DNA of 35,324 nucleotides from contig JAJCZS010000044.1 in the NCBI GenBank assembly GCA_029262275.1, positions 1 through 35,324 on the forward strand. The letters run 5' to 3'. Below the pieces are notes generated by a model. That model saw only the letters and a program-made list of their open reading frames with translations, did no database searches and was not told where the DNA came from. Positions 25,100 to 35,315 of the stretch are shown here, piece after piece. Position 1 is the stretch's first letter. Each line of letters starts with the position of its first letter. The stretch is from Deltaproteobacteria bacterium. Lineage in GTDB: Bacteria > Desulfobacterota_D > UBA1144 > Nemesobacterales > UBA2774. The translations under genes were made by a program, and so were the position numbers.

Positions 25100-25139
25100 A
25101 AGGGGAATAAGCTAATTAAGTTTGTTCCCCTTTCTTTTT
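25100..25139. terminator. Strong intrinsic terminator between thi4 and the convergent gene
   Basis: AAGGGGAA (25100-25107) pairs perfectly with TTCCCCTT (25125-25132), followed by TCTTTTT on the plus strand. On the minus strand the stem is followed by ATTTGTTTT, so it probably serves both convergent genes. Confidence 0.8.
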
Positions 25140-25923
25140 ATTTACTGCCCATAGATTCTGCACATTTGTCACAAAGAACTCCTTCATACTGGACTTTTAG
25201 GACCTCTTCCTGCCAGTGGGAATTAGAAAGACAACACTCTGGATTGTCACAAAAAGCCTCTCCGGTTTTTTCATATGCAATAACCTGAAGAACGTATGAG
25301 AGAAGAATAGACGATATCTTAGGATCATCATATTCTACAAATCTTCCCTTATACATTGAATCAAGTTCACTAGTATCCATACCATTTTGAGCGAGCCTAC
25401 CCTTAACATAATAGTATTCTCTTGGTTTAGCGGGGGCTTCTATCAATCCTGAGGTTGAAATTAGAGCAGGTGTGCCCATCAAGACAACCCTGGCATGATA
25501 TCTTCTGTCTTCAAACGTTCCAAATAGTCTGCCAGTAAGTATTAAATGGATGTTATTGTTATTTATCTCTTCACTAACTTTTTCTGAAAACAGGCGGTAT
25601 AGAATTCTCTGCATCCAGAATCCATCATAAAATTTTCCTAGGACACTTTCATCACCTAAAAGCTTATTAACTTCATTCTCAATCTCTGAGCGGCCTGTGA
25701 AATTAGGATCATCATGGGGAATCTCTATATCGGGTATTTGAATCGAAGATAAATCTCTTGCTAGTTTATAAATATGTTCTTGGGTTGGGGATAGAAAATC
25801 TAGGAGATTGCCTCTGTCCTCAATATGCAGTCCGTATTGCTTTAAATTCTCTACAATATAAGTAGTGTCGAGGGAGGTGGAAGGATAATCTGAATAAATA
25901 TAAAGTCGTATGTCATTTCTCAT
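25138..25923 (-). CDS. DUF6775-like putative metallopeptidase (tentative)
   Basis: About 261 residues, no signal peptide. The conserved-looking core is 'HLILTGRLFGTFEDRRYHARVVLMG', 'STSGLIEAPAKPREYY' and a C-terminal Cys cluster: 'CDNPECCLSNSHWQEEVL' then 'LCDKC'. The end resembles the zinc-binding tail of archaemetzincins (C-x4-C ... C-x2-C), but there is no HExxH motif. I recall this pattern from the DUF6775 'putative metallopeptidase' family; that link is from memory and needs a profile search. The start is uncertain: an in-frame TTG at 25938 exists, but the ATG at 25923 gives the cleaner N-terminus 'MRNDIRLYIYSD'. Neither has a good ribosome site. Confidence 0.65.
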   Translation of the reverse strand: MRNDIRLYIYSDYPSTSLDTTYIVENLKQYGLHIEDRGNLLDFLSPTQEHIYKLARDLSSIQIPDIEIPHDDPNFTGRSEIENEVNKLLGDESVLGKFYDGFWMQRILYRLFSEKVSEEINNNNIHLILTGRLFGTFEDRRYHARVVLMGTPALISTSGLIEAPAKPREYYYVKGRLAQNGMDTSELDSMYKGRFVEYDDPKISSILLSYVLQVIAYEKTGEAFCDNPECCLSNSHWQEEVLKVQYEGVLCDKCAESMGSK

Positions 25924-25974
25924 TTGGAAAAGTGGCAAAGAATTATTTGAGAAAAAAAACGAATTCTAATAAAG

Positions 25975-26442
25975 TCAGAGTTCGACTTCAGCTATTACTT
26001 CAATCTCAACAGGTGAATCGGCAGGAAGCTCTGCAACACCGACTGCAACCCTAGCGTGCCTCCCCGCTTCTCCAAATACCTCAAAGAAAAAGTCCGACGC
26101 GCCATTAACTACCCCGGCTTGAGCAGTGAACCCTTGAGCGCTGGAGACGTATCCCGTAATCTTTACTATCCTTTTAAACTTACTAAAATCACCGGTCTCT
26201 TTTCCAATAACAGCTAATGCATTAATAGAAGATACTGTGGCTGCTTGGTAGGCCTCTTCCGGAGTAACATCAGCCCCAACTTTGCCCTTAAATATTAAAT
26301 TGCCATCTTTGAGAGGAAGCTGTCCTGAAACAAATAACAAATTCCCGGAAACTATAGCAGGCACATAAGCACCTAGTGGATCAGGTGGATCAGGGAGCTT
26401 TACCCCCAACTCTTGTAAGCGCTTGTTAACTTCTGTCATCAT
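25975..26442 (-). CDS. RidA/YjgF family protein
   Basis: A 155-residue trimeric-barrel protein of the YjgF/YER057c/UK114 family. Typical blocks are 'SGNLLFVSGQLPLKDG', 'AYQAATVSSINALAVI', 'RIVKITGYVSSA' and the end 'RHARVAVGVAELPADSPVEIEVIAEVE', whose Arg is the ligand-binding Arg of enamine/imine deaminases. It is the longer (~150 aa) subgroup, whose substrate is less certain than for true RidA. Two ATGs in a row exist (26442 and 26439); GAGG is better spaced for the second. The start overlaps the degP end by 17 bases, so it is translationally coupled to degP. Confidence 0.92.
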   Translation of the reverse strand: MMTEVNKRLQELGVKLPDPPDPLGAYVPAIVSGNLLFVSGQLPLKDGNLIFKGKVGADVTPEEAYQAATVSSINALAVIGKETGDFSKFKRIVKITGYVSSAQGFTAQAGVVNGASDFFFEVFGEAGRHARVAVGVAELPADSPVEIEVIAEVEL

Positions 26443-27856
26443 CTACCTCTTGTTTGAGTGCAACATAAATAGTATTTGATCCGCGTTTTACTAAGAAAAG
26501 CAAATTTTGCCCCTGCTTTACTGAGTCTACTTGATTTCTATAATCATCTAAATTCTCTATCTGTTTTTTATTTATCTCTAAAATAATATCACCCCTAAGC
26601 AAACCGGATTCAGATGCGACTGTATTTGCTTTAACATTAGTTATAACAACTCCATCTGAATATTCAATCCCTAACTTGCTCTTGATTTGTGGAGTTATCT
26701 CCTGAACAATAAGACCTAAGTTGTTCTCAATATCATTATTTGGCTTACGACTAGATACTTGAGTGCCTTGTTCCGGTAACTCACCTAGTTTAATGCTTAA
26801 GACCTTCTCTTTGCCATCTCTAATTACTTTTAATTTAGTTTTAGTTCCTGGAGCATAGCCGGCCACCAGCTTGGGCAGCTCGGGCATTTCATCAATTTTA
26901 TTCCCGTTTAGCTCTATTATTATATCCCCTCTCTTAATACCGGCCTTCTCCGCAGGCCCCCCGGCAGTGATATCTGCAACCAGTGCTCCACTATCATCTT
27001 CTAAGTTAAGGCTTTGGGCTATCTCTGGGCTTACCTGCTGTACGTAAACTCCTATCCAGCCTCTAACAACCTTACCGCCGGCTCGTAGCTGTGAGACAAC
27101 GTTTTTGGTCATATTAATAGGGATTGCAAAACCTATCCCCTGCCCCCTAGCAATTATTGCCGTGTTAACCCCGACAACCTCTCCTTGAAAGTTAAAAAGA
27201 GGCCCACCGCTATTACCTGGGTTAATTGCGGCATCGGTCTGTACAAAATCGTCATAAGATCCAAACCCCAAAGATCTGCCTTTTGCGCTTATTATCCCAG
27301 AGGTAACCGTATGACCTAAACCAAAGGGGTTTCCTATGGCTAGTACCCAGTCACCAATCTCCAGATTGTCTGAATTCCCAAATTTAACTGCAGGTAGTTT
27401 TGTTTTAGGCTCTATCTTAAGAAGTGCTAGGTCAGACTTCGGATCAGTGCCTATTATTTTGGCAACATAGCTATCTCCATTTTGAAGTATCACCTTTATA
27501 TCAGTTGCGCGCTCAACTACATGATTGTTTGTAATTATGTATCCGTCTTCACTAAAAATGAATCCGGAGCCAAGACCCTGTCTTTTAAACTCCCTATCAG
27601 GACTATCGCCAAAGAACTTTTCAAAAAAATCATCAAAAGGATCTCCCTCTCTTCCACTGAAAGGAGATTCAGGTGATTTTCCACCTCTTTTAGTAACGCT
27701 TGTAGTACTGATATTTACTACCGAAGGGCTTAGTTGTTTAACTAGAGGGGAGAGGGATTTAAACTCGTTTGTTTGCGCATTAACATTCAGCCCTAAACCA
27801 ACAAAAACCATTAAAACTAATATTGGAATAATCAAAGTTCTTGTCATAGAAGTCAT
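26426..27856 (-). CDS. degP: DegP/HtrA-type periplasmic serine protease
   Basis: A 476-residue Do-like protease/chaperone. It has a signal peptide ending 'NVNAQ', a trypsin-like domain with catalytic His112 ('ITNNHVV'), Asp142 ('SDLALLK') and Ser216 ('NPGNSGGPL'), then PDZ1 (about 275-365) and PDZ2 (about 385-470). It degrades or refolds misfolded envelope proteins. I chose the ATG at 27856 because GGAGGT sits 9 bases before it and it gives a clean signal peptide; the frame extends upstream to 27913 without support. A minus-strand TATAAT at 27972-27977 may be its -10 box. Confidence 0.96.
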   Translation of the reverse strand: MTSMTRTLIIPILVLMVFVGLGLNVNAQTNEFKSLSPLVKQLSPSVVNISTTSVTKRGGKSPESPFSGREGDPFDDFFEKFFGDSPDREFKRQGLGSGFIFSEDGYIITNNHVVERATDIKVILQNGDSYVAKIIGTDPKSDLALLKIEPKTKLPAVKFGNSDNLEIGDWVLAIGNPFGLGHTVTSGIISAKGRSLGFGSYDDFVQTDAAINPGNSGGPLFNFQGEVVGVNTAIIARGQGIGFAIPINMTKNVVSQLRAGGKVVRGWIGVYVQQVSPEIAQSLNLEDDSGALVADITAGGPAEKAGIKRGDIIIELNGNKIDEMPELPKLVAGYAPGTKTKLKVIRDGKEKVLSIKLGELPEQGTQVSSRKPNNDIENNLGLIVQEITPQIKSKLGIEYSDGVVITNVKANTVASESGLLRGDIILEINKKQIENLDDYRNQVDSVKQGQNLLFLVKRGSNTIYVALKQEVDDDRS

Positions 27857-28048
27857 TAAATTAATACCTCCAAAGAAAATTATTTGAGGTTGCATAAATA
27901 AACACACGACCAATAATTCAATATGTATTTCTTAAAAGGATACTAAGTAAACCCAGGATTTCCATAACAAAATTATAGCTGAGTCAAAGATGTATCGAAT
28001 GTTAAATCACTAAGAGTAATCTGATTTGAAGGTTTCTGGTTAATAATT

Positions 28049-30953: not shown

Positions 30954-32144
30954 TTGTTAATAAGAGCAATGTCTAGAGCTAAATCACAAATAAAAGATTG
31001 TCTTGAGGTCAATGTCTATAATTCTATATCTTCTATAGATAAGAATCTCTACAACAACATTGTAGATGCTGAGAACCCATTTCTGGAATATGAGTTCTTA
31101 GAAGCATTTGAGAAATCTGGGTGTGTAGGTCCGCATACCCCTTGGAACCCTCGCTATATAATACTTACCGATAAAAATAAGATTATTGGAGCAATTACTT
31201 CATATATAAAACTCGACTCCTATGGGGAATATATATTTGATTGGGAATGGGCCAGAGCGTATGAGAGCTCAGGGCTTAGGTATTACCCAAAGTTGGTAGT
31301 GGCTATTCCATTTACGCCAGCTACAGGAAGACGTATTTTGGTTCATCCAGACTATTCTTTTGAAGAGTGTGCTGACAAAATGGTTAAACGTTTAGTCGAA
31401 TTATGTATAGAGGAGAATTGCTCTTCAATACATTTTCTATATTTGACTGAAGATGAACAGAATTTTCTCAGTAAAAGGGGATTTTTGACGAGAATAACAC
31501 ATCAGTACCACTGGAAAAACCGAGATTACAATAGTTTTGATGATTTTCTTTGCGATCTAAGATCTGGAAGAAAAAAGCAGATCAGAAAAGAGCGCAGATC
31601 TCTTGAGGAGATGGGCCTCGATATCCAAACTCTAGAAAAAGATGAAATAAAAGAAGAGCATATCGACGCGATTTGGGATTTCTATATCGATACCCATTCC
31701 CGTAAATGGGGCAGTGCGTACTTAAACCGAGAATTTTTTGATTTGATGTTCCAGAACTTTAAGCACCGGCTAGTCTTTATAATGGCAAAGGACGGTAATA
31801 AATGGGTAGGCGGAACATTCAACGTCGTTAAGAACAACAGACTCTTCGGCAGGTACTGGGGCACACTTTACAATTACAAGAATCTACATTTTGAATGTTG
31901 TTTCTATGGATTAATAGATTATTCTATAAAGAAAGGGGTCAAAATTTTTGAGGCCGGGGCTCAAGGGGAGCATAAGTTCTTAAGAGGTTTTGCCGCAGTG
32001 CCAACTTATAGCTCTCATATGATATTGAACGAAGGAGCGCAAAATGCAATTGGTGATTATTTGATCAGAGAAAGGGAATATACGGACCATTTAATAACGC
32101 AATATAACAAACAATCACCACTAAAATATTTATACGGCAAGTAG
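30954..32144 (+). CDS. GNAT/FemAB-like acyltransferase, PF04339 (DUF482) family
   Basis: A 396-residue protein matching the 'peptidogalycan biosynthesis/GNAT' family PF04339. Signatures are 'NPFLEYEFLEAFEKSG', 'SYGEYIFDWEWARAYE', 'YYPKLVVAIPFTPATGRRILV', 'RKKQIRKERRSL' and 'GRYWGTLYNYKNLHFECCFYG'. The fold is a double GNAT like FemABX (aminoacyl-tRNA-dependent peptidoglycan transferases) and like Aat/Bpt leucyl- or arginyl-protein transferases. The substrate is unknown. The TTG start at 30954 has AAAGAG upstream; an ATG at 30969 is an alternative. It ends 15 bases before clpS. Confidence 0.85.
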   Translation: MLIRAMSRAKSQIKDCLEVNVYNSISSIDKNLYNNIVDAENPFLEYEFLEAFEKSGCVGPHTPWNPRYIILTDKNKIIGAITSYIKLDSYGEYIFDWEWARAYESSGLRYYPKLVVAIPFTPATGRRILVHPDYSFEECADKMVKRLVELCIEENCSSIHFLYLTEDEQNFLSKRGFLTRITHQYHWKNRDYNSFDDFLCDLRSGRKKQIRKERRSLEEMGLDIQTLEKDEIKEEHIDAIWDFYIDTHSRKWGSAYLNREFFDLMFQNFKHRLVFIMAKDGNKWVGGTFNVVKNNRLFGRYWGTLYNYKNLHFECCFYGLIDYSIKKGVKIFEAGAQGEHKFLRGFAAVPTYSSHMILNEGAQNAIGDYLIREREYTDHLITQYNKQSPLKYLYGK

Positions 32145-32159
32145 CTGACTAAAAAAACA

Positions 32160-32501
32160 ATGGAAGAAAAAACAATAAAACCAGGGGATCTCGAAGGTGA
32201 TCTGCTTACTCAGGAAAAGATAAATTTAAAAAGACCTGACATGTACAGCGTTATCTTGCTTAACGACGATTACACACCAAGGGATTTCGTAGTTTGGATA
32301 CTTATGAGGGTATTTTATAAAGGTGAAGCAGAATCTAACCAGATCATGCTAGAAGCTCACACTGCAGGAAAAAGCACTGTAGGCGTTTATACTTATGATG
32401 TTGCTACGACCAAAATTGCACAGGTTGATAAAATTGCAAAGCAGTATGAGCACCCACTTACTTGCATTCTAGAGGTAGAAAGTGGCGGAGAGGAAGAATG
32501 A
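32160..32501 (+). CDS. clpS: ClpS, N-degron adaptor of ClpA
   Basis: A 113-residue adaptor that binds proteins with N-terminal Leu, Phe, Tyr or Trp and hands them to ClpAP. The binding-pocket residues Asn35-Asp36-Asp37 in 'LLNDDYTP' and the His in 'IMLEAHTAGK' are kept. The gatekeeper Met of E. coli ClpS (Met40, 'YTPMEF') is Arg41 here ('YTPRDF'). The flexible N-terminal extension is about 27 residues. No clear ribosome site precedes the ATG. Its TGA stop overlaps the clpA start. Confidence 0.96.
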   Translation: MEEKTIKPGDLEGDLLTQEKINLKRPDMYSVILLNDDYTPRDFVVWILMRVFYKGEAESNQIMLEAHTAGKSTVGVYTYDVATTKIAQVDKIAKQYEHPLTCILEVESGGEEE

Positions 32502-34741
32502 TGTTATCCAAAGAACTGGAAGAGACACTAAAAAGAGCATTCGAGCAGGCAAAGGTAAGAAGGCATGAATTTATTACCTTGGAGCACATACTATTTGAAT
32601 TAACTTATGATCCCGACGCATCTGATGTGTTAATAGGATGTGGAGTGGACCTAGACAGGCTAAGAGAGTCAATTGATAACTTTATGAATGAGAATATGCC
32701 CGCTATTGAATCAGAGTATTTGCCGGATCCTCAATATACAGCAGGCTGCCAATTTGTCCTTAGACTTGCTGCAATGCATGCTGAGTCGGCTGATAAACCA
32801 GAGATAAACGGGGGAAATATACTGGTTTCAATGTTTAGGGTAGAGGAATCCCACGCTGTTTATCTTCTAAATCAACAAGGTGTTAACCGCTATGACGTTG
32901 TACGATACTTTTCGCACGGCGGATCACAATTCGAGAGACAAGAAAAGCCCACAAGCATTGCCAAAACTGATAGTGAGTCTGCACCAGAGCAAAAAGATCC
33001 ACTTTCTGAATACTGTACAAACTTGGTTCAAAAAGCGAGTGACGGCAAGCTAGACCCACTAATAGGAAGAGAATCAGAGATCGACCGTACAATTCACATT
33101 TTGGCCAGAAGAAGAAAAAACAATCCTATATTTGTAGGTGATGCAGGGGTAGGAAAAACAGCTATTGCTGAAGGTCTGGCGCTTAGAATCGCTGAGAAAA
33201 AAGTACCTGAAGCATTGGAAGAAACTGATATTTATGCCCTAGATATGGGATCTCTCACAGCAGGTACCCGTTATAGAGGAGATTTTGAAGAAAGATTAAA
33301 AGCAATAATAGACTCAGTAAAAGGCGATCAGAAAAAAGTTTTATTTATCGATGAAATCCACACTGTAATAGGTGCAGGAGCTGTATCGGGTGGCACACTA
33401 GACGCATCAAATATGCTCAAACCCGCACTTGCAAGCGGTGAAATTCGCTGTATCGGCACCACTACTTCGAAAGAATATAGGGGTGTGTTTGAAAAAGACC
33501 ACGCGCTCGCTAGAAGATTCCAAAAGGTTGATGTTTATGAGCCGAGCCAAGATGAGTGTCTTAAAATTCTTCAGGGTTTAAAGAAATATTATGAGGAATT
33601 TCATGGTGTAAGGTATTCCACACCATCCTTAAAAGCTGCGGTGGATCTTTCTGCTAAATATATGAACGACCGCAGGCTTCCTGATAAGGCAATCGATCTG
33701 ATTGATGAAGCAGGTGCTGACGTTAAACTCAGAAAATATGATTCGGAAACCAAACAAGTAACAGTTAAGGATATTGAGGCACTGGTTGCTAAGATAGCCA
33801 AGATACCTACGCGCACTGTTAAGGTTGATGATAGAAACAGGCTCATGACCCTGGCTGGTGATCTTAAGAAAGTAATTTTTGGTCAAAATGAGGCTGTAGA
33901 TCAGCTTGTTACAGCAATCCAAATGTCTCGCTCAGGACTGAGCGAGCCTAACAAACCTGTGGGTAATTTTATGTTTGCAGGCCCTACTGGTGTAGGAAAA
34001 ACTGAGCTTGCAAAACAGCTTGCTGAAGCAATGGGGATTGAATTTATCCGTTTTGACATGAGCGAATATATGGAAAAGCACACTGTGTCACGTTTAATTG
34101 GCTCCCCTCCTGGATATGTAGGTTACGATGAAGGTGGTCAGCTAACAGAAGCAGTGCATCAAAACCCCCATGCAGTCTTACTACTCGATGAAATAGAAAA
34201 GGCTCATGAGGATATATACAATGTGCTTCTTCAGGTTATGGATCATGCGACCCTAACTGATTCAAACGGAAGGAAGGTCGATTTCAGGCAGATTGTCTTA
34301 ATACTAACAACCAATACGGGATCGAGAGAAAGCAATCAGAGAAGCGTTGGGTTTGGAAAAGAGGAATATGAGGATAAAAGCGCCCAGGCAATTGAGCGCT
34401 ACTTTAGCCCTGAGTTTAGAAACCGCTTAAGTGCCACACTTCATTTCAACTCGCTTGGCAAAGAAATTGTTGAGAGGATTGTAGATAAGATGATCTCTCA
34501 GCTTGCGGAGAGATTAAAAGCCAAAAAAGTTATCCTTGAGCTCACGCCTAAAGCAAGAACGTACATAGCCGAGCAAGGCTACAACAAACAATTGGGTGCA
34601 AGACCTATCCAAAGGCTTATAGACCAGGAAATTGCACAGAAGCTGTCTCAGGAAATCCTATTTGGCAAACTATCTAGCGGCGGCGATGTTAAGATTCTCA
34701 TCAAGAAAGGTGAGTTGGATTTTGAATTTGCGGAGAACTAA
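32498..34741 (+). CDS. clpA: ClpA, AAA+ unfoldase of the ClpAP protease
   Basis: A 748-residue two-ring AAA+ unfoldase. It has an N-domain (about 1-145, ClpS-binding), D1 with Walker A GDAGVGKT (214-221) and 'VLFIDEIHT', and D2 with Walker A GPTGVGKT (495-502) and 'LLLDEIEKAHEDIYNVLLQVMD'. No ClpB-type middle coiled coil is present. 'SVGFG' (616-620) corresponds to the IGL/IGF loop that docks on ClpP. The start ATG at 32498 overlaps the clpS stop (ATGA); a second ATG follows at once, and the GGAG run inside clpS supplies the ribosome site. clpP is not in the window. Confidence 0.97.
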   Translation: MMLSKELEETLKRAFEQAKVRRHEFITLEHILFELTYDPDASDVLIGCGVDLDRLRESIDNFMNENMPAIESEYLPDPQYTAGCQFVLRLAAMHAESADKPEINGGNILVSMFRVEESHAVYLLNQQGVNRYDVVRYFSHGGSQFERQEKPTSIAKTDSESAPEQKDPLSEYCTNLVQKASDGKLDPLIGRESEIDRTIHILARRRKNNPIFVGDAGVGKTAIAEGLALRIAEKKVPEALEETDIYALDMGSLTAGTRYRGDFEERLKAIIDSVKGDQKKVLFIDEIHTVIGAGAVSGGTLDASNMLKPALASGEIRCIGTTTSKEYRGVFEKDHALARRFQKVDVYEPSQDECLKILQGLKKYYEEFHGVRYSTPSLKAAVDLSAKYMNDRRLPDKAIDLIDEAGADVKLRKYDSETKQVTVKDIEALVAKIAKIPTRTVKVDDRNRLMTLAGDLKKVIFGQNEAVDQLVTAIQMSRSGLSEPNKPVGNFMFAGPTGVGKTELAKQLAEAMGIEFIRFDMSEYMEKHTVSRLIGSPPGYVGYDEGGQLTEAVHQNPHAVLLLDEIEKAHEDIYNVLLQVMDHATLTDSNGRKVDFRQIVLILTTNTGSRESNQRSVGFGKEEYEDKSAQAIERYFSPEFRNRLSATLHFNSLGKEIVERIVDKMISQLAERLKAKKVILELTPKARTYIAEQGYNKQLGARPIQRLIDQEIAQKLSQEILFGKLSSGGDVKILIKKGELDFEFAEN

Positions 34742-34766
34742 AAATCTAGTATAGCAGGTGTGTAGA

Positions 34767-35315
34767 ATGAAGAACTGTCCCAAATGCAGCTCCGATCTAA
34801 AAATTAAGCTAATCGGATCTATAGAAGTAGATGAGTGTGAATCCTGTAAAGGAATCTGGCTCGACAAAGGAGAACTTCGCGAAGCTAAAGACCTTATAGA
34901 TCCTAACCTCAACTGGCTTGATTTTGAAATATGGAAACACCCCGAGAAATTCACTTCAAAAGAGGGTGCAATTAAATGTCCAACTTGTGATATTTCAACG
35001 GTAGGTATTGAGTATGGACATACTGGTGTCTATGTCGATTACTGTACTAACTGCCAAGGTGTGTGGCTCGAGAAAGACGAGCTGCCTAATATTATTGGGG
35101 CACTTGAGCATGATATAAATGAAAAAACTTTTTCAGAATATGTGCACGAGAGCATAGAAGAAGCAAAGGACTTAGTAACTGGCCCTGAATCCTTTATGTC
35201 AGAATGGAAGGATCTTTCCTCTGTCTTTAAATTAATGCAGTACAGACTATATGTGGAAAAGCCTAAATTCGTTGAGACGCTTACTGAGCTTAATACACTG
35301 AATCCATTTAAGTAA
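34767..35315 (+). CDS. Double zinc-ribbon (zf-TFIIB-like) protein
   Basis: A 182-residue protein with two TFIIB-like zinc ribbons. The first has Cys4-x2-Cys7 and Cys24-x2-Cys27 followed by 'GIWLDKGEL'; the second has Cys71-x2-Cys74 and Cys93-x2-Cys96 followed by 'GVWLEKDEL'. The C-terminal ~80 residues are helical and unlike anything I recognise. The ATG at 34767 has AGG about 8 bases upstream; an in-frame GTG at 34758 is less likely. It follows clpA by 25 bases and may be cotranscribed. The function of the family is unknown. Confidence 0.85.
   Translation: MKNCPKCSSDLKIKLIGSIEVDECESCKGIWLDKGELREAKDLIDPNLNWLDFEIWKHPEKFTSKEGAIKCPTCDISTVGIEYGHTGVYVDYCTNCQGVWLEKDELPNIIGALEHDINEKTFSEYVHESIEEAKDLVTGPESFMSEWKDLSSVFKLMQYRLYVEKPKFVETLTELNTLNPFK

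Follow-up and report, generated by a model that had tools for sequence, protein, structure and literature searches.

A conserved PF04339 protein encoded directly upstream of clpS and clpA is a probable partner of the ClpS-ClpA N-degron pathway

ClpS reads the first amino acid of a protein and thereby marks it for destruction, and in the ClpS proteins of E. coli and Caulobacter the residues N34, D35 and H66 hold the free alpha-amine. To our knowledge, the bacterial N-degron pathway has only two enzymes with an established role ahead of ClpS, the leucyl/phenylalanyl-tRNA-protein transferase Aat (PF03588) and Bpt (Bpt/ATE1, PF04377). Other aminoacyl-tRNA-dependent transferases include FemA, MprF/A-PGS, FemX of Weissella viridescens, a FemABX enzyme of peptidoglycan branching (PDB 1xf8, 4ii9), and the peptide synthases Sbb17 and Sba18 (PDB 9wqx, 9wqy), whose acceptor is a small molecule, streptothrisamine, and for which no link to ClpS is known. 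The PF04339 family (COG3146) is widespread and highly conserved, and we know of no activity for any of its members, which counts against reading them as transferases. A prediction that COG3146 proteins are pterin enzymes was tested and failed (PMC3223725). The literature examined on DUF482, COG3146 and PF04339 yielded no connection to ClpS.

The window analysed here is a stretch of 35,324 nucleotides, contig C44 of G000, a 2.48-Mb Candidatus Dadabacteria genome. The original prediction held that a PF04339 gene in it ends 15 bases before clpS and that clpS and clpA overlap by 4 bases, and both features were confirmed, the 15 bases being counted to the ATG of clpS and the overlap reading ATGA (Table 1). 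The open reading frame of the PF04339 protein extends upstream to a TTG (30954-32144, + strand), and the ATG given in Table 1 is likely the start of the protein, since its closest relatives begin there too. The Pfam match covers the family profile at full length (positions 1-368 of 369). The clpA gene may alternatively start at 32501, where there is another in-frame ATG. Genes for an OmpA-domain protein and a glyoxalase lie upstream of PF04339 on the opposite strand. The zinc-ribbon gene beyond clpA accompanies it only in the most closely related Dadabacteria loci, and its product probably stands outside the PF04339-ClpS-ClpA system.

Table 1. Position of the PF04339-clpS-clpA locus and of the gene that follows it in the window
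Feature	Coordinates	Strand	Size and evidence
PF04339 gene (FemAB_like, COG3146, formerly DUF482; predicted tandem-GNAT, FemX-type fold)	30969..32144	+	391 aa; Pfam 455 bits (cut-off 27)
clpS, N-recognin adaptor	32160..32501	+	PF02617 104 bits; pocket alignment
clpA, AAA+ unfoldase	32498..34741	+	TIGR02639 equivalog 1093.8 bits (cut-off 993.15)
Small double zinc-ribbon (TFIIB-type) protein, downstream of clpA	34758..35315	+	PF13453

The expectation that this adjacency would be conserved in relatives was borne out. PF04339 was found in 36 of the 58 genomes of the class Dadabacteria, and in 34 of these 36 it immediately preceded clpS in the same orientation, the two others (G042 and G032) being cut by contig ends; the gap between the genes was 0-30 bases in most of these loci. 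Outside the class, Binatota-type loci and some Leptospiraceae showed the same order, and in Bdellovibrionaceae PF04339 is placed head-to-head with a clpS. In the three Bdellovibrionaceae genomes checked (G058, G059 and G212) a further clpS is present elsewhere, so the one adjoining PF04339 is a second paralog. In the PF04339 family tree the operon form occupied one clade and the head-to-head form fell apart from it, which indicates at least two origins of the linkage. Given its frequency in the class and its recurrence in other phyla in two arrangements, the adjacency of PF04339 and clpS is not due to chance. The linkage is not universal: PF04339 was unlinked to clpS in the Rubrobacter, SAR324 and Rhodoblastus loci and in most PF04339-bearing Bdellovibrionota and Spirochaetota. 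Such unlinked lineages would be expected if PF04339 were a passenger of the operon, that is, a cell-envelope or small-molecule aminoacyl transferase (FemAB-, MprF- or Sbb17-like) co-transcribed with clpS-clpA without any joint function. The targets of the relatives FemX, MprF and Sbb17 are cell wall, lipid or small molecules, and Pfam describes the family as 'Peptidogalycan biosysnthesis/recognition'. We consider this explanation rather unlikely, as it is opposed by the two separate arrangements, one of them beside a second ClpS paralog, and by the neighbourhoods of 54 distant loci, in which clpS and clpA recurred across phyla beside PF04339 and the remaining neighbours did not. The joint losses described below also argue against it.

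The distribution of the genes pointed in the same direction as their order. Among the Dadabacteria genomes, 35 had both PF04339 and ClpS, one had PF04339 only, one had ClpS only and 21 had neither; the corresponding numbers for PF04339 and Aat were 34, 2, 1 and 21. The sole genome with ClpS only (G013) encodes a ClpS-like protein of another kind, in which a DDNDHTY-type motif replaces NDDYTP, and true ClpS was thus never seen without PF04339 in the class. Neither PF04339 nor ClpS nor Aat is present in f8 or in several further families or genera, a pattern that suggests their repeated joint loss in Dadabacteria. ClpS was present in each of the 22 PF04339 genomes examined across phyla. With the reservation that counts from one phylum are not phylogenetically independent, it was found in 27 of 28 Bdellovibrionota with PF04339 versus 84 of 116 without it, and in 8 of 8 versus 78 of 141 Spirochaetota. 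In 14 control genomes the proteins formed nested sets, PF04339 (2 genomes) within Aat (4) within ClpS (5); Synechococcus elongatus, one of these controls, gave matches for all three. Taken with the conserved gene order, these data make it probable, at roughly 0.8 by our estimate, that PF04339 is a functional partner of the ClpS(-ClpA) pathway.

The idea that the PF04339 protein stands in for a missing tagging enzyme was not borne out. The genome from which the window derives carries aat at G000:C37:50792, separate from the PF04339 locus, and aat was detected in 34 of the 36 PF04339-bearing Dadabacteria and in 49 of 55 PF04339-bearing genomes outside the class. PF04339 would therefore be an addition to Aat and no substitute for it, and its role as a replacement for Aat, which accompanies it almost everywhere, was rejected. 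That Aat already provides Leu/Phe tags in nearly all these genomes was counted against the transferase reading set out below. The predicted absence of the known enzymes held for bpt, which was detected in none of the 24 Dadabacteria tested, and failed for aat. Overall bpt was present in 24 of 79 PF04339 genomes, and it occurred less often in genomes with PF04339 linked to clpS (3 of 34) than in those with unlinked PF04339 (21 of 45), a count dominated by one lineage. A strict replacement of Bpt by PF04339 was likewise unsupported, on account of that dominance and of three genomes (G064, G262 and G369) that carry both. One SAR324 genome has bpt some 2 kb away from clpS.

We compared the PF04339 protein with the known transferases by structure and by sequence profile. 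An AlphaFold2 model built from 66 relatives (mean pLDDT 93.6, pTM 0.90) displayed a tandem GNAT fold of the FemX type, and the top Foldseek match in the PDB was FemX of Weissella (E 9e-13, TM 0.56/0.64), which shares this fold over its full length. The next matches were Sbb17 and Sba18 (TM on target 0.71-0.72), FemA, S. aureus FemX and MprF/A-PGS, so that in this comparison the predicted fold was of the aminoacyl-tRNA-transferase type, as had been anticipated. At the level of sequence the resemblance to FemX was weak (11-12% identity; hhalign probability 6.5%, P 0.0056, with the FemX sequence verified against PDB 3gkr); the profile alignment was colinear and included a basic SKTKSKIKR / RSGRKKQIRKER stretch. 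PF04339 differs from FemX in its linkage to clpS in several lineages and in its extra conserved segments GEYIFDWEWA..YYPK and EAGAQGEHK. Pfam detected no FemAB (PF02388), Aat (PF03588, Leu_Phe_trans) or Bpt/ATE (PF04377/PF04376) domain in the protein, the profile matches to Aat (hhalign P 0.056) and Bpt (P 0.26) were not significant, the conserved cysteines of Bpt/ATE1 were absent from the invariant columns of PF04339, and a PDB sequence search with the PF04339 profile returned nothing meaningful. Of the proposed likeness to the tagging transferases, the FemX-type fold thus stood, in the model, and a significant sequence resemblance to Aat or Bpt did not. What PF04339 would share with Aat is the making of ClpS substrates and, as observed, the same genomes; with Bpt it would share the proposed role. 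Over the 66 relatives, drawn from several phyla, 37 columns were invariant, and K336 and R339 are invariant residues; the columns include segments GE.IFDWEWA-YPK, H-N, GR-WG, HF and E.GAQG.HK..RG, and this conservation, which was equal where clpS is distant, points to an enzyme with a single ancient reaction.

On these grounds we tentatively propose, at somewhat less than even odds, that PF04339 creates or extends N-degrons as a FemX-like aminoacyl-tRNA-protein transferase, with aminoacyl-tRNA as the presumed donor and a protein N-terminus as the presumed acceptor. The GNAT superfamily also accommodates an acyl-CoA-dependent N-acyltransferase that caps protein N-termini or side chains. Paired with ClpS, such an enzyme would be a protective eraser, because an acetylated N-terminus cannot enter ClpS; indeed, binding to chloroplast ClpS1 is blocked by N-terminal acetylation (PMC11371169). 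This chemistry would agree with weak PF13480 and PF00583 matches in the protein (Pfam) and with the annotation of plant homologs as acyl-CoA N-acyltransferases (PMC4488762, PMC3531887). We judge it unlikely, considering that the best structural matches were aminoacyl-tRNA transferases, with tandem acetyl-CoA GNATs (VipF and the clavulanate enzyme) appearing at lower TM-score, and that the acetyl-CoA P-loop [QR]xxGx[GA] after beta-4 was conserved in neither half of the protein (6 scattered chance matches in two stretches of 66 sequences).

The substrate pocket of ClpS provided a further line of evidence. In the window ClpS the canonical hydrophobic gatekeeper pair is not kept: Arg occupies the position equivalent to E. 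coli M40 (codon 32280-32282) and Ala that equivalent to V65 (codon 32355-32357). Among 52 ClpS rows from loci paired with PF04339, 44 combined R or Q at position 40 with A or T at position 65, and no unpaired row did so; the 44 rows represent all Dadabacteria loci, the seven Bdellovibrionaceae loci and, in three rows because one locus was counted twice, two Leptospiraceae. The other eight paired rows retained M40/V65, as did all 20 unpaired ClpS from PF04339 genomes in the first alignment. A control set of 40 ClpS was taken from genomes that lack PF04339: 9 carried R, Q or K at position 40, always together with V65, and none carried A65; R40 alone was accordingly rejected as a hallmark of pairing with PF04339. 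The combination of R/Q/K40 with A65 was seen in paired loci only. Lineages with unlinked PF04339 usually had a canonical ClpS pocket, and the Rubrobacter-type genomes had M40/A65. The alignment comprised 79 columns, too few to place the altered ClpS in a tree. Every aligned ClpS from a paired locus kept N34, D35 and H66, so a degron read by these proteins must still present its alpha-amine unblocked. This agrees with the transfer of an amino acid and disagrees with acetyl capping. Counted against the transferase reading were the weak hhalign support from FemX and its lack from Aat and Bpt, the many lineages with unlinked PF04339 and the eight M40/V65 rows.

The co-variation of pairing with the pocket residues, like the tight coupling to clpS in most Dadabacteria loci, could also be expected if PF04339 modified ClpS or ClpA themselves, or an internal lysine of the substrate, and so regulated the protease instead of tagging N-termini. 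This we regard as very unlikely: PF04339 is equally conserved where clpS is distant, and the pocket changes are shared by the ClpS1 of chloroplasts, in which the pocket and the preference for degrons are coupled (PMC7966870). In the transferase reading that we prefer, the PF04339 product would serve the ClpS-ClpA N-degron pathway as a dedicated partner and act beside Aat, not instead of it. The residue it adds would create a new N-terminus, the adjoining ClpS with its altered pocket (M40R/V65A) would bind this through the free alpha-amine, and ClpS would then hand the bound protein directly to ClpA.

A parallel exists in plants, where the comparison was made from the literature and from the ClpS1 pocket. 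The ClpS1 of Arabidopsis chloroplasts (PDB 7D34) has R40/A65, identical to the pair in the window ClpS, and its basic gatekeeper and Val-to-Ala change were reported to shift N-degron preference (PMC7966870, PMC11371169). The Arabidopsis PF04339 homolog At2g23390 (COG3146) was found in a chloroplast proteome (PMC3531887), and silencing of a cotton homolog affected fertility and the expression of lipid genes (PMC4488762). A connection between At2g23390 and ClpS1 was not found in the literature examined. The broadest form of the proposal, which we consider quite improbable, would rank PF04339 proteins as a third kind of N-degron maker, FemX-fold aminoacyl-tRNA-protein transferases that pair with R40/A65 ClpS, in a module inherited by cyanobacteria and chloroplasts, with At2g23390 as the producer of N-degrons for ClpS1.

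A 2024 review raises the question of whether N-degrons in chloroplasts are generated by dedicated enzymes that transfer amino acids or acetylate (PMC11371169), and PF04339 is a concrete candidate for such an enzyme. If the tie to ClpS is true, it would give a function to the PF04339/COG3146 family and an extra enzyme to the bacterial N-degron pathway. Its predicted fold and its place beside clpS in several phyla make PF04339 a candidate, accessible to testing, for an additional step in the breakdown of proteins in bacteria and perhaps in chloroplasts.

Several protease-related genes were found in the window, among them those encoding a probable metallopeptidase and an HtrA-like protease, and only among the closest Dadabacteria did the zinc-ribbon gene stay near clpA.

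Other genes in the window
Product	Position	Strand	Remark
Probable metallopeptidase, DUF6775/DUF7001	25138-25938	-	221.6 and 185.7 bits
HtrA-like protease	26426-27913		
Double TFIIB-type zinc-ribbon protein	34758-35315		downstream of clpA

Some Dadabacteria (genomes G003, G004, G009, G014 and G013; loci L187-L191) encode a further ClpS-like protein of about 125-150 aa, in which DDNDHTYEYV replaces NDDYTP and which is without the alpha-amine-binding motif. Variants of the ClpS pocket (E. coli numbering) were also observed where PF04339 was absent or unlinked to clpS. The M40 gatekeeper was R, Q or K, with V65 retained, in ClpS of Bdellovibrionota and Spirochaetota genomes without PF04339 (loci L147, L149, L150, L152, L155, L162, L179, L182 and L183), and M40 was combined with A65 (motifs NDDYTPMEHV and EAH) in Rubrobacter and an actinobacterial relative, whose genomes carry PF04339 unlinked to clpS (L192-L194). 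One SAR324 genome showed bpt and a clpS separated by about 2 kb (G067:C99:73659-76250); PF04339 was not near clpS in this genome.

A divergent clpS was found head-to-head with PF04339 in Bdellovibrionaceae (loci L060, L062, L067, L068, L069, L074 and L075; contigs G058:C31 and G212:C18), and in genomes G058, G059 and G212 the clpS facing PF04339 was a second paralog. D36 is often altered in these head-to-head ClpS proteins (motifs NDQFTPR, NDPVTPR), and N34, D35 and H66 are retained despite this frequent change.
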